Below, in pieces: positions 2,640-5,698 of a DNA stretch of 64,000 nt. The DNA comes from an uncultured Tateyamaria sp. Lineage in GTDB: Bacteria > Pseudomonadota > Alphaproteobacteria > Rhodobacterales > Rhodobacteraceae. Position numbers and translations under genes: made by a program. How positions within the stretch are numbered: position 1 is the first letter of the stretch; every line of letters begins with the position of its first letter. The stretch covers positions 305,481 through 369,480 of the forward strand of contig NZ_CANLAG010000004.1 of NCBI RefSeq assembly GCF_947488715.1, given 5' to 3'. The notes under the pieces were generated by a model, which was given only the letters and a program-made list of their open reading frames with translations, was not told the origin of the DNA and made no database searches.

Positions 2640-2957
2640 ATGGAAATATACGGTTTGAAAACCTGCGATACGTGCCGAAAGGCGATCAAGGCCTTGCCGC
2701 AAGCGCGATTTGTCGATGTCCGATCAGAAGGTGTGCCGGACGCGGTTATGGCGGCCGCACGTGACACCTTTGGCGATGCGTTGGTCAACACCCGTTCGAC
2801 CACGTGGCGCGGCCTCGATGAGGCGGCGCGGCGGGGGACACCAGAGGCGTTGTTGTCTGAACATCCGACGCTGATGAAACGCCCCTTGATCGCGGATGGC
2901 GACCGCCTGTTTCTGGGGTGGACCAAAGATGTGCAGGCGGCCCTGGGCGTGACCTAG
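2640..2957 (+). CDS. ArsC/Spx-family thioredoxin-fold protein
   Basis: A 105-residue protein of the ArsC/Spx/YffB superfamily. The N-terminal redox motif is CDTC (residues 9-12, in YGLKTCDTCRKA), followed by the family's KRPL segment at 80-83 (PTLMKRPLI). The CxxC spacing fits the Spx/YffB side more than arsenate reductases, which have CxxxxxR. A ribosome-binding site GAGGGA precedes the ATG. Substrate is unknown: arsenate reduction is possible, but no arsenic genes are nearby. Its stop overlaps the stop of the convergent bufferin-type operon. Confidence 0.8.
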   Translation: MEIYGLKTCDTCRKAIKALPQARFVDVRSEGVPDAVMAAARDTFGDALVNTRSTTWRGLDEAARRGTPEALLSEHPTLMKRPLIADGDRLFLGWTKDVQAALGVT

Positions 2958-3511
2958 GCCGCAGGTGCGCGCGGTTTGAGGGCGCGGTCAAACGACAGCG
3001 GACCCGCTCCCTTGACCACCAACACGATCAGCAGGAACACCCAGAGCGACCGCTGGTCCATGATCAGGCTGTTTGAAGGCGCGTCAAACCATGCGCCCAG
3101 CACCAAACCGTCCCCCCATTTGTCGTGGCCATTCAGATCGGTCAGCGATTGCACAACGATGAATACAATCATCGCAAGCGAGGACAGCCGGGTCAAAAGC
3201 CCCACGATGATCAACAATGGCAGAATGAACTCTGCGACGGTGCCAACGGTCACGACAGCCCAATGATAGAAACTCAGCTGGGTGGTGTCATAGCCCACCG
3301 CCTCCATCGCCTTGGGGAAAATCTGCGCATATGCGCCGAGCGAGGGTTGGAAAATGCCCAGCACCCCATCGCCCAATTTGGTCATCCCCGACACCCAGAA
3401 ATACGCGGCCAGCACTGCGGCAAAGAGAAAGCGCGCCAGTGTGGGCAGGATCCAATCGTTGCGATCGAGCGGGGCAAACAGGGATGTGTGCAGGCGGGAC
3501 AAGGCGGTCAT
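2954..3511 (-). CDS. DoxX-family membrane protein, last gene of the bufferin-type operon (BufD-like)
   Basis: A 185-residue DoxX-type protein with four hydrophobic segments (about residues 24-44, 85-105, 108-125 and 155-172). It starts three bases after the stop of the DUF2063 gene, so it is translationally linked to it. DoxX-like proteins are a frequent fourth member of DUF2282-DUF692-DUF2063 operons. Its exact role there is not established and could be redox partnering or membrane support for peptide modification. A general quinone/thiosulphate oxidoreductase-type DoxX role is the alternative reading. Confidence 0.8.
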   Translation of the reverse strand: MTALSRLHTSLFAPLDRNDWILPTLARFLFAAVLAAYFWVSGMTKLGDGVLGIFQPSLGAYAQIFPKAMEAVGYDTTQLSFYHWAVVTVGTVAEFILPLLIIVGLLTRLSSLAMIVFIVVQSLTDLNGHDKWGDGLVLGAWFDAPSNSLIMDQRSLWVFLLIVLVVKGAGPLSFDRALKPRAPAA

Positions 3512-3514
3512 AAG

Positions 3515-4273
3515 TCAATCCTTCGGCGTGGTGATGTCGGCGATACAGCCCTGTTGCAACAACAGGGTCAGAAGCGGTGTGAGGTCAAAATCGGGGTCTA
3601 TGCTGGCGGCGGCATCCTGAGCACCGGCCAAGGTGTTGCCGTCTTGCGTCGCCGCAACCCAAGCGGCCTGTGCCGTGGTGAGCGGGAAAGGCGCTGGGTC
3701 AAAAAGGCGGCGCGCCACGAGCACGGGTTGCGCGATGGCGCGCGGTTTGTCGGCACCTGCCTGCATGTTGTAGCGCCAGATATCAAAAAGCGGCCATTGC
3801 GAGGGAACCAGTTGGACAGCAGGCGCAAGGCGCAGGGTTGATGCCATCAGGCGGTCAGGCGTGATCTGCGACAGTCTTTCGGCGTCAAAGGGGGCCACGT
3901 CACCTGCATGATAAGCACGGCGCATTGCCAGTTCCAGGTGCGCCACGTCCGGCAGATAGCCGATATGGGCCAGCGGCTGAAACGCGGCCAGAAACTCCGG
4001 CATGTCCACACCATAGTGCATCATCATCGGCGTTCGCGGCGGGTGCGCCCGCGCATAGAGACGGGCTAGTGACGCAAAGTTTTCGTCGCCCAACAGCTTT
4101 TCGAGAACCGGAAAGGCCGACCGCAAGGCTTCGGTCAATGCCACGGTGACGTTGTTGCGGTAGACCGCAAAGCGTTTTTCAGTCGGCTGCCCATCGGCGC
4201 CGACGAGACCCTCGGGCACGGAGCGTTCAGGGTCAAGAAGTGCGGCCCGAAACTGTGATTGAACGCCGGACAT
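3515..4273 (-). CDS. bufC: DUF2063 family partner of a DUF692 oxidase (BufC/HvfC-like)
   Basis: A 252-residue protein. The N-terminal half carries the DUF2063 domain that begins QSQFRAALLDPE and contains RFAVYRNNV and ARLYARAHPP. The C-terminal half resembles the RiPP-recognition-like region of BufC/HvfC proteins. In characterised systems this protein presents the precursor peptide to the DUF692 iron oxidase. The start at 4273 (MSGVQSQF) is preferred because the family homology begins there and it lies only four bases after the DUF692 stop. The frame is open 62 codons further upstream, but there it overlaps bufB. Confidence 0.85.
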   Translation of the reverse strand: MSGVQSQFRAALLDPERSVPEGLVGADGQPTEKRFAVYRNNVTVALTEALRSAFPVLEKLLGDENFASLARLYARAHPPRTPMMMHYGVDMPEFLAAFQPLAHIGYLPDVAHLELAMRRAYHAGDVAPFDAERLSQITPDRLMASTLRLAPAVQLVPSQWPLFDIWRYNMQAGADKPRAIAQPVLVARRLFDPAPFPLTTAQAAWVAATQDGNTLAGAQDAAASIDPDFDLTPLLTLLLQQGCIADITTPKD

Positions 4274-4277
4274 GAGG

Positions 4278-5141
4278 TTACGATCCAGCGGTTGCGCTCT
4301 GCAACGCCAGTGCGGCGCGTTCGGCCTCGGCTTGCAGGATTGGCCATTCAGGTACGTCGTTGTCCCATTCCACCAGAACAGGCGCGGGCCCGGTGCGCTG
4401 TAGGGTATGGCGCAAAAGGTCCCAGACTGGTTCGGCGGTTTTGCGGCCGTGGCTGTCAATCAACAGCGGCGCACCCTGATCGTCGTGGTCATGGTCATGG
4501 CCGCCGACATGGATTTCCCCAACGGCGTCAATGGGGTAGGCATCGACGTAGCCTTGGGGCGTGTAGTCGAGATTGGTGGCGGAGATAAACACGTTGTTCA
4601 CATCGAGCAGCAGCCCACACCCGGTACGACGGACCAACTCGGCCAGGAAATCCGTCTCGGACCACGTGCTTTGTGAGAAGGCGAGGTAGCTCGATGGGTT
4701 TTCCAAGAGCAGGCGACGACCCAGCCGTGTTTGCACCTGGTCGATATGTTCGGCCACACGCGCGAGGGTCGCGTCGGTGTAGGGCAGGGGCAGCAAGTCG
4801 TCGAGAAACTCGGCGCCGTGGGTGGACCAAGCAAGGTGTTCGGAAAAGCTTGCCGGTTCCAACCAGTCCAGCAAGTGTGCCAGCCGGGTCAGGTGGTCCT
4901 GATCAAGAGGCTGTTCACCGCCGATCGACAGGCCAACGCCGTGTACGGACACCGAAAACTGATCGCGCAGGGCGCGCAGTTGCGCGTGGGGGCGACCGCC
5001 GTCGCCCATGTAGTTTTCGGCGTGCACTTCGATCCATTTGACGGGACCCGGATCGTCACGCAAAGCATTGAAATGCTGCGCTTTGTAGCCAACGCCGGGT
5101 GCTGCTGGCAGGCGGGGAGGGGTCAGTGTCGCGTCCAGCAT
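4278..5141 (-). CDS. bufB: DUF692 multinuclear iron-dependent oxidase (MNIO), BufB-like
   Basis: A 287-residue TIM-barrel MNIO, the family of MbnB, TglH and BufB that oxidises cysteines in precursor peptides. Expected metal-ligand motifs are present: [10 protein letters not shown] (from residue 40), [50 protein letters not shown] and LVEWDND. The start at 5141 has AGGAG nine bases upstream. An upstream in-frame codon at 5177 lacks a site. It lies between the DUF2282 peptide gene and the DUF2063 partner, the canonical order. Known family chemistry converts Cys to thiooxazole-type heterocycles; the exact product here is inferred. Confidence 0.9.
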
Positions 5142-5201
5142 GTCGAGGCTCCTGGCGGTGGGAGTGCTGCGCCACAACGGGGCGGCGCAGCGCGGTCCGC
5201 A

Positions 5202-5507
5202 TCAGGCGGGCAGGTCGCGGGTCAGTTCTTCGAGCGAACCGGTGCGTGCGGTGCCATCCGCCATTTGGGGCAGGTCGATTTCCGCGCATGTACCAGCGTC
5301 AACAAGGGTCCAAGCGTTGCCTTGGTAGTCCACAGTCGATGTGCCGGCGCAGGTGGTACCCGGTCCGGCGGCGCAGTCGTTTTCGCCTGCGAGCGAGATG
5401 CCATAGCATTTTTCCTTGGCGGCGGCTTCGGCGCTTGTGGCTGTGTGGGCGGTCATCGCGGCGGCGACGGCACCGACGATTGCTACTGTCTTCATGGTCT
5501 TCGACAT
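5202..5507 (-). CDS. bufA: DUF2282 precursor peptide, bufferin-like (BufA1 type)
   Basis: A 101-residue exported peptide with a signal sequence (about residues 1-28) and a core with four cysteines at 34, 45, 53 and 74 in the DUF2282 pattern KCYG..NDCA..TTCAG..YQGNAW..GTC. In the Caulobacter bufferins this family is matured by BufB/BufC into a copper-binding peptide. That makes copper buffering in the periplasm the likely role here, inferred from family and operon. The start is placed at the ATG 5505-5507 with GGGACG upstream. A TTG two codons earlier and an ATG at 5493-5495 are alternatives. The long C-terminal tail after Cys74 is acidic. Confidence 0.88.
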
Positions 5508-5628
5508 CTTCAACGTCCCTTTCGGATATCGGTTACAATACGGTCGTGCGCTTTACATAGGGCACCATGTTCCAAAGTTACCACCCACGCAGGGCTGTGT
5601 CACAGAGGCGTTATCAGATGTCAGCAAA

Positions 5629-5658
5629 AAGGCCGGAATTTGCGTAAATTCCGGCCTT
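5629..5658 (-). terminator. Rho-independent terminator of thrS
   Basis: A perfect 13-bp stem, AAGGCCGGAATTT (5629-5641) with AAATTCCGGCCTT (5646-5658) and a 4-base loop. On the minus strand it runs straight into TTTTT (5625-5629), 40 bases after the thrS stop. It also isolates thrS from the bufferin-type operon promoter. Confidence 0.9.
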
Positions 5659-5698
5659 GCTGTGCGGTGTCATAGGCGCTCGCGGGGGTGAAACCGCG

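Follow-up and report, generated by a model that had tools for sequence, protein, structure and literature searches.

A Buf1-type bufferin operon in an uncultured Tateyamaria sp. and a candidate promoter box shared with relatives without an NrsF match

Gene Content and Identity of the Operon

We analysed a 64,000-nucleotide stretch of DNA (the window) from an uncultured Tateyamaria sp. (assembly GCF_947488715.1, contig NZ_CANLAG010000004.1, positions 305,481 to 369,480), which carries a bufferin operon, bufA-bufB-bufC-doxX, preceded by a candidate operator. Open reading frame (ORF) reading and Pfam identified four complete open frames on the minus strand, from 5507 to 2954. The first, bufA (5202-5507), encodes a 101-residue DUF2282 precursor (PF10048; 85.2 bits against a cut-off of 22.4) with four cysteines and a signal peptide predicted from sequence features. 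It is followed by bufB (4278-5141; 287 residues), assigned as an MNIO (DUF692) bufferin maturase by Pfam (MbnB_TglH_ChrH, 342.5 bits against 25), NCBIfam, alignment, and conservation, and by bufC (3515-4273; 252 residues), whose assignment as a DUF2063/PME-type partner was based on Pfam (PF09836, 93 bits against 27.2), a structural model, and a fold match. The last gene, doxX (2954-3511), encodes a 185-residue membrane protein, recognised by Pfam (33.6 bits against 23.6) and by its conserved order. The preliminary description of this DNA, made from the sequence alone, had proposed an operon with these four genes at 2954-5507 and gaps of 3-4 bases among the last three. Both points held, with gaps of 60 bases for bufA-bufB, 4 for bufB-bufC, and 3 for bufC-doxX.

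The bufferin-type identity proposed there was also borne out. BufB scored above the cut-off of the NCBIfam family NF050167, 'MNIO family bufferin maturase' (365.3 bits against 310), and below those of HvfB (NF003818, 226.6 against 360), MbnB (53.8 against 325), ApyH, and ChrH, which supports the Buf1 assignment. BufA matched no NCBIfam family, while BufC and DoxX gave only Hvf matches under the cut-offs, those of HvfC and HvfX included. The nearest named matches were from Tateyamaria, and some close BufA relatives (e.g., P0046 and P0077) already bear the name 'BufA1 family periplasmic bufferin-type metallophore'. Judged by its sequence, the locus is a canonical Buf1 operon, a new member rather than a new kind of operon.

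Bufferins are widespread modified peptides, and the operon as such is ordinary, as indicated by its frequency and its fixed order. Among 198 genomes of the family, DUF2282 was present in 140 (142 BufA copies), MNIO in 139, and an NrsF match in 29 (28 over the cut-off); the source genome contained a single DUF2282 and two MNIOs, and it gave no NrsF match. BufB, BufC, and DoxX followed BufA in order in 104 of the 107 copies with more than 3 kb downstream, the exceptions being G077, G083, and G130, and this order is therefore no accident. Tandem DUF2282 copies ahead of one bufB occurred at G007:C18 and G100:C45 (L110, L185). The MNIO was split into two frames or interrupted by a stop codon, through decay or assembly error, at G149:C1:525482-526265, G100:C45, G160:C288, and G666 (L317).

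The closest described system is Buf1 of Caulobacter vibrioides (PMC12452194, PMC3511200), with a four-cysteine DUF2282 precursor, an MNIO, a DUF2063 partner, and DoxX in the same order. It differs in being under sigma-F control (GTAACC-N16-CGAA, PMC3511200), whereas the present operon has another conserved box, no NrsF match, and an additional R-D-L-P tail motif. The Oxazolin/EGKCG captophorins of the HvfA family (PMC12668002) share the MNIO, the DUF2063 partner, and the expected thiooxazole chemistry; however, BufA is without EGKCG repeats and the HvfB, HvfC, and HvfX cut-offs were not reached. Methanobactin biosynthesis (MbnABC) has the MNIO superfamily in common, but the MbnB cut-off was not reached, and the precursor here is a DUF2282 protein with a predicted signal peptide.

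Precursor, Maturation Proteins, and Expected Chemistry

The four cysteines of BufA, noted in the preliminary description, are residues 34, 45, 53, and 74, and all four were conserved in 141 of the 142 copies. These copies had been collected by profile, free of selection for a cysteine pattern; an alignment with rows chosen by the four-cysteine pattern would be circular. The signal-peptide call rests on sequence features at the N-terminus, where charged, hydrophobic, and AxA-like stretches can be recognised by eye. BufB aligned with 3bww and the methanobactin enzyme MbnB across the H, E, D, and N motifs, and 31 of its H/D/E/N/C/Y residues showed 98% or higher conservation in an alignment of 119 rows. 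BufC had no match in the PDB by sequence. Its model (predicted local distance difference test score, pLDDT, 95.7) matched the folds of 8hci_A (E = 1.9e-6), which is the non-DUF692 chain of the TglHI complex, and of NGO1945, 3dee (E = 9e-4). By these features, BufC fits a PME-type 1 partner (DUF2063 plus an RRE-like domain), resembling known MNIO partner proteins.

In Buf1, modification takes place at the central cysteines, and a disulfide joins the first cysteine to the last (PMC12452194). The MNIO-PME1 clusters that have been characterised introduce 5-thiooxazoles and as a rule bind copper (PMC12668002), and copper binding is reported for Caulobacter Buf1 and related thiooxazole peptides (PMC12452194, PMC12668002). 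By homology, the same thiooxazole chemistry is expected here, from which we infer the modification and copper binding of BufA. BufC would present BufA to BufB in the cytoplasm, where BufB, together with BufC, likely oxidises Cys45 and Cys53 to copper-binding thiooxazoles. The modified product would then leave through Sec, a Cys34-Cys74 disulfide would likely form, and the exported peptide could chelate excess periplasmic copper.

A Conserved Box Upstream of bufA

This locus bears on the control of bufferin expression in lineages other than those with sigma-F. Sufficient upstream sequence was available for 133 of the 140 genomes with DUF2282 (7 were dropped), comprising 111 NrsF-negative and 22 NrsF-positive genomes. 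Upstream of bufA we found a box of several half-sites with the consensus TRAC-N5-YGTGA-N2-CAC-N5-YGTGA-RTGG, accepted when its position weight matrix (PWM) score exceeded 12 bits. It was present in 90 of the 111 NrsF-negative genomes and in two of the 22 NrsF-positive ones (G155, and G129, whose NrsF match is under the cut-off). The copy in G053 is an example of a strong one. The sigma-F-like motif GTAAC-N16-18-CGAA had the reverse distribution (0/111 and 12/22), and no genome among the 133 had both. Shuffled upstream sequences (20 shuffles) gave a mean of 0.05 and a maximum of 1 of 133.

The exact box pattern matched 43 times in the 198 genomes, once per genome and always 153-202 bases ahead of the DUF2282 domain; the reversed control gave no match. 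Beyond the box, conservation was mostly low, with two exceptions: TnAC, resembling a further half-site, immediately upstream, and, at a fixed distance downstream, a weak -10-like CTAnnTTT. A set of named loci shares species with the census; in this set, the box was present at 47 of the 57 Rhodobacterales-type loci and at none of the 14 from Hyphomicrobiales. A search of 385 genomes of the class returned one match, itself within the family, with a stricter pattern that caught only one of the five family genomes present. Directly past the -10-like element, several genomes carry a short inverted repeat (ATCGC..GCGAT, for example) that might fold into a hairpin at the 5' end of the transcript. On a Tritonibacter plasmid (an unannotated record), a bufferin copy has a box of 31.8 bits and a thrS frame.

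By comparison, then, the conserved box of most relatives without NrsF takes the place of a sigma-F-like motif that is frequent in NrsF genomes, and a regulator other than sigma-F likely controls the operon. A DNA-binding regulator would activate the bufA promoter from the box, and a single operator per genome could serve as bait for the sensor. Publications on MNIO or DUF692 combined with Roseobacter, Rhodobacter, Phaeobacter, regulon, or motif gave no description of the box in a survey conducted mostly at record level. As far as these searches go, the sigma-F-free promoter class, the C-terminal tail, and the hollow clade described below are apparently undescribed.

The window itself contains a degenerate copy of the box, TAACGCCTCTGTGACACAGCCCTGCGTGGGTGG (5581-5613, minus strand; TRAC-N5-YGTGA-N2-CAC-N5-YGTGA type; 17.3 bits), located by PWM score, pattern scan, and alignment as a candidate operator. 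By eye against the box alignment, a -10-like TATGTA lies at the conserved fixed distance (5554-5559, minus strand). Between thrS and bufA, a hairpin scan detected a terminator-like hairpin with a T run (5617-5664, minus strand; -25.3 kcal/mol, z = -7.8), so that bufA likely starts its own transcript. A sigma-70 scan reported neither the proposed -10 element nor this hairpin, and Rfam gave no match. With a relaxed pattern, the window box was the only zero-mismatch match in the source genome.

Control as in Caulobacter is unlikely, given that no NrsF match was found in the source genome, where 14 of 19 first-look candidates were scored and no search was aimed at the gene for sigma-F. Upstream of the window's bufA, GTAAC-N16-18-CGAA was not found. 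The sequence GTAACC-N6-CGAA near the bufA start codon was rejected as a sigma-F promoter on account of its wrong spacing and its overlap with the likely ribosome-binding region.

Overall, we favour a complete Buf1 operon in which Cys45 and Cys53 are probably oxidised by BufB/BufC to copper-binding thiooxazoles, with a weak upstream box and a promoter presumably activated by a regulator; we assign this joint reading a probability of about 0.85. Several observations count against it. The PWM was trained on sequences that it scored, and neither promoter signal was seen in 21 of the 111 NrsF-negative and 8 of the 22 NrsF-positive genomes. At 17.3 bits, the window box is the weakest of the 90 accepted, and the exact pattern misses it. 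When two mismatches were allowed, the 43 genomes with exact boxes yielded 173 sites against 62 control sites, so that weak further targets are possible, although a single recurrent sequence and sites that were read twice account for part of this excess; the relaxed pattern with two mismatches gave 31 sites against 19 control sites in the source genome. The closest named relative, L004, scored -11.3, with a gapped remnant visible by eye, while of seven same-genus genomes five scored above 12 bits, with 10.7 and -5.0 for the remaining two. The box may thus be eroding in the genus of the window. The BufA model is weak (pLDDT 66.5), and its fold search against the PDB returned no match below E = 4.

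The C-Terminal Tail of BufA

The last 12 residues of BufA (90-101; 5205-5240, minus strand) form a motif that was defined by tail counts among the 142 copies. RD[LIVM]P was found in 128 copies and an RDxx variant in 6, and the motif was absent from 8. The commonest form past Cys74 in the family is ELP-spacer-R-x-G-S-L-E-x-L-(D/E)-R-D-L-P-A; both GSL and RD were readable by pattern in 119 copies, and in 118 of these they lie four residues apart. All 90 NrsF-negative genomes with the box have the R-D tail or its variant, and the R-D-L-P tail is kept in all seven same-genus genomes. Hyphomicrobiales Buf1 copies end soon past the G-S/T-L motif. The suggestion that an acidic tail after the last cysteine may define a subgroup is supported by this distribution and by the residues after Cys74, which are net acidic by count. 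On these counts, the tail is a marker of the lineage.

The relation of the tail to the maturation proteins was followed on a BufB+BufC tree of 119 rows, covering 110 of the 140 family genomes (length-filtered) and 9 others. Tail type required at least five changes on this tree, and one BufB-BufC clade of 10 genomes (Shimodaira-Hasegawa-like approximate likelihood ratio test, SH-aLRT, 100) included five tailed and five tail-less precursors. Such mixing, together with the RD tail on hollow proteins, whose two checked genomes have no MNIO match (see below), makes the tail unlikely as a maturation signal; a role in the fold or towards a partner is more likely. In the BufA model, the tail blocks reached 77-78, about the confidence of the core strands.

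Hollow DUF2282 Proteins

The only BufA copy that departs from four cysteines, from G130, is without exactly Cys45 and Cys53, and this genome has no MNIO match. The comparison was extended to an order sample of 371 genomes, overlapping the family sample, of which 277 had DUF2282 and 276 had MNIO. When the printed lists were compared by eye, DUF2282 without MNIO was limited to G130 and G784, and the reverse to G709. BufA of G784 likewise is without exactly the two central cysteines; its gene still lies behind thrS, and no BufB, BufC, or DoxX match was seen in the 10 kb taken. The absence of the central cysteines in both DUF2282 genomes without MNIO indirectly supports these residues as the maturase targets.

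We then aligned 232 BufA-like proteins, 120 from the BufA search and 112 new ones among the best 120 of 491 from a search with G784. All four cysteines were present in 204, only the outer pair (C--C) in 27, and the first was lost in one. The 27 hollow proteins and G130 formed one side of a branch (SH-aLRT 99, or 83 without the central loop) in a quick tree of 103 rows, with every second census copy, few columns, and two long rows. This arrangement suggests that the loss of the central cysteines was perhaps a single event; the absence of MNIO covers two genomes only. RD occurred within the last eight residues of all 27 hollow proteins, mostly as RDRP, and RD[LIVM]P in one. One hollow bufferin, P0241, bears the species label Marivita sp. 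GX14005. Two of them, P0242 and P0318, carry the BufA1-bufferin name in UniRef, a warning that the central cysteines should be checked before a DUF2282 protein is annotated as copper-binding. Hollow bufferins could also serve as a natural control that separates the role of the scaffold from the thiooxazole chemistry.

These proteins permit a broader proposal, which we regard as tentative and rather doubtful. In this family, the bufferin scaffold would have a second job next to its copper role, the outer cysteine pair and the R-D tail serving a periplasmic partner. The hollow clade would have kept only that job after discarding the central cysteines and the maturase, and the copper version would have moved from sigma-F to a dedicated regulator reading one multi-half-site operator per genome.

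Alternative Explanations

The strongest competitor to the favoured reading is that the operon is simply Buf1: the tail would just complete the BufA fold, the box would be bound by a global regulator, and nothing functional would distinguish the lineage. We consider this less probable but to be taken seriously. The operon passes the core family tests of Buf1, the weak BufA model gives tail and core strands nearly equal confidence, and near-matches to the box outnumber those of the control. However, Hyphomicrobiales Buf1 proteins end before such a tail, and the exact box stands only at bufA, once per genome in 43 of 43 genomes.

It appears unlikely that the operon deals mainly with gold, chromate, or oxidative stress instead of copper. 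Caulobacter operons respond to dichromate through sigma-F (PMC3511200), and the gold-induced 'gig' operons are bufferin clusters (PMC12452194), but the copper binding reported for Caulobacter Buf1 and related thiooxazole peptides (PMC12452194, PMC12668002) argues for copper. The tail as a follower peptide, read by BufB-BufC during modification, is very improbable and was rejected. A conserved motif at a variable distance from the last cysteine would suit such a role; nevertheless, one supported BufB-BufC clade serves tailed and tail-less precursors alike, the RD tail is kept in 27/27 hollow proteins, the two checked hollow genomes being without an MNIO match, and preliminary results in PMC12452194 place the signal peptide in the recognition sequence. 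Least credible is a decaying operon that yields no modified peptide in the source strain: the window box is degenerate and a decaying relative exists (G666, with bufB in two pieces and the fourth cysteine lost), yet the four frames are open, BufB scores well over its family cut-offs, and the -10-like element is in place.

Neighbouring Genes and a Second MNIO Locus

Neighbours were counted by tblastn. Of the 135 genomes with enough flank, 91 had thrS upstream and in the same orientation; it was there in 78 of the 87 genomes that have the box, against 5 of the 22 that have NrsF. Loose ORF clusters of the flanks gave a sigma-factor-like frame and NrsF upstream in 14 genomes. The downstream neighbours in the window, encoding cold-shock (Csp) and ArsC-like proteins, recurred in 74 of 105 genomes each. 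No other widely conserved regulator beside the operon was seen in these ORF clusters, which were not profile-scanned. Plasmid-borne bufferin operons of Paracoccus (L308, L311) have the same four genes in the same order but differ in carrying sigma factor and NrsF/DUF1109 genes behind doxX, where the present operon has none.

The second MNIO of the source genome (G000:C5:52017-52796; L002:896-3201, L243) has a DUF2063-positive partner. Upstream of it lies a 188-residue protein with 12 cysteines, no obvious signal peptide, and no Pfam or NCBIfam match; 461 homologues were found. According to PMC12452194, precursors without a signal peptide go with partners that are without the DUF2063 signature, and the second locus therefore looks like an exception to this pattern. 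In G126 (L244:2566-4959), a long frame resembling the protein encoded upstream in L243 has a related cysteine-rich stretch at its C-terminus, and MNIO-like and DUF2063-like frames come after this long frame.

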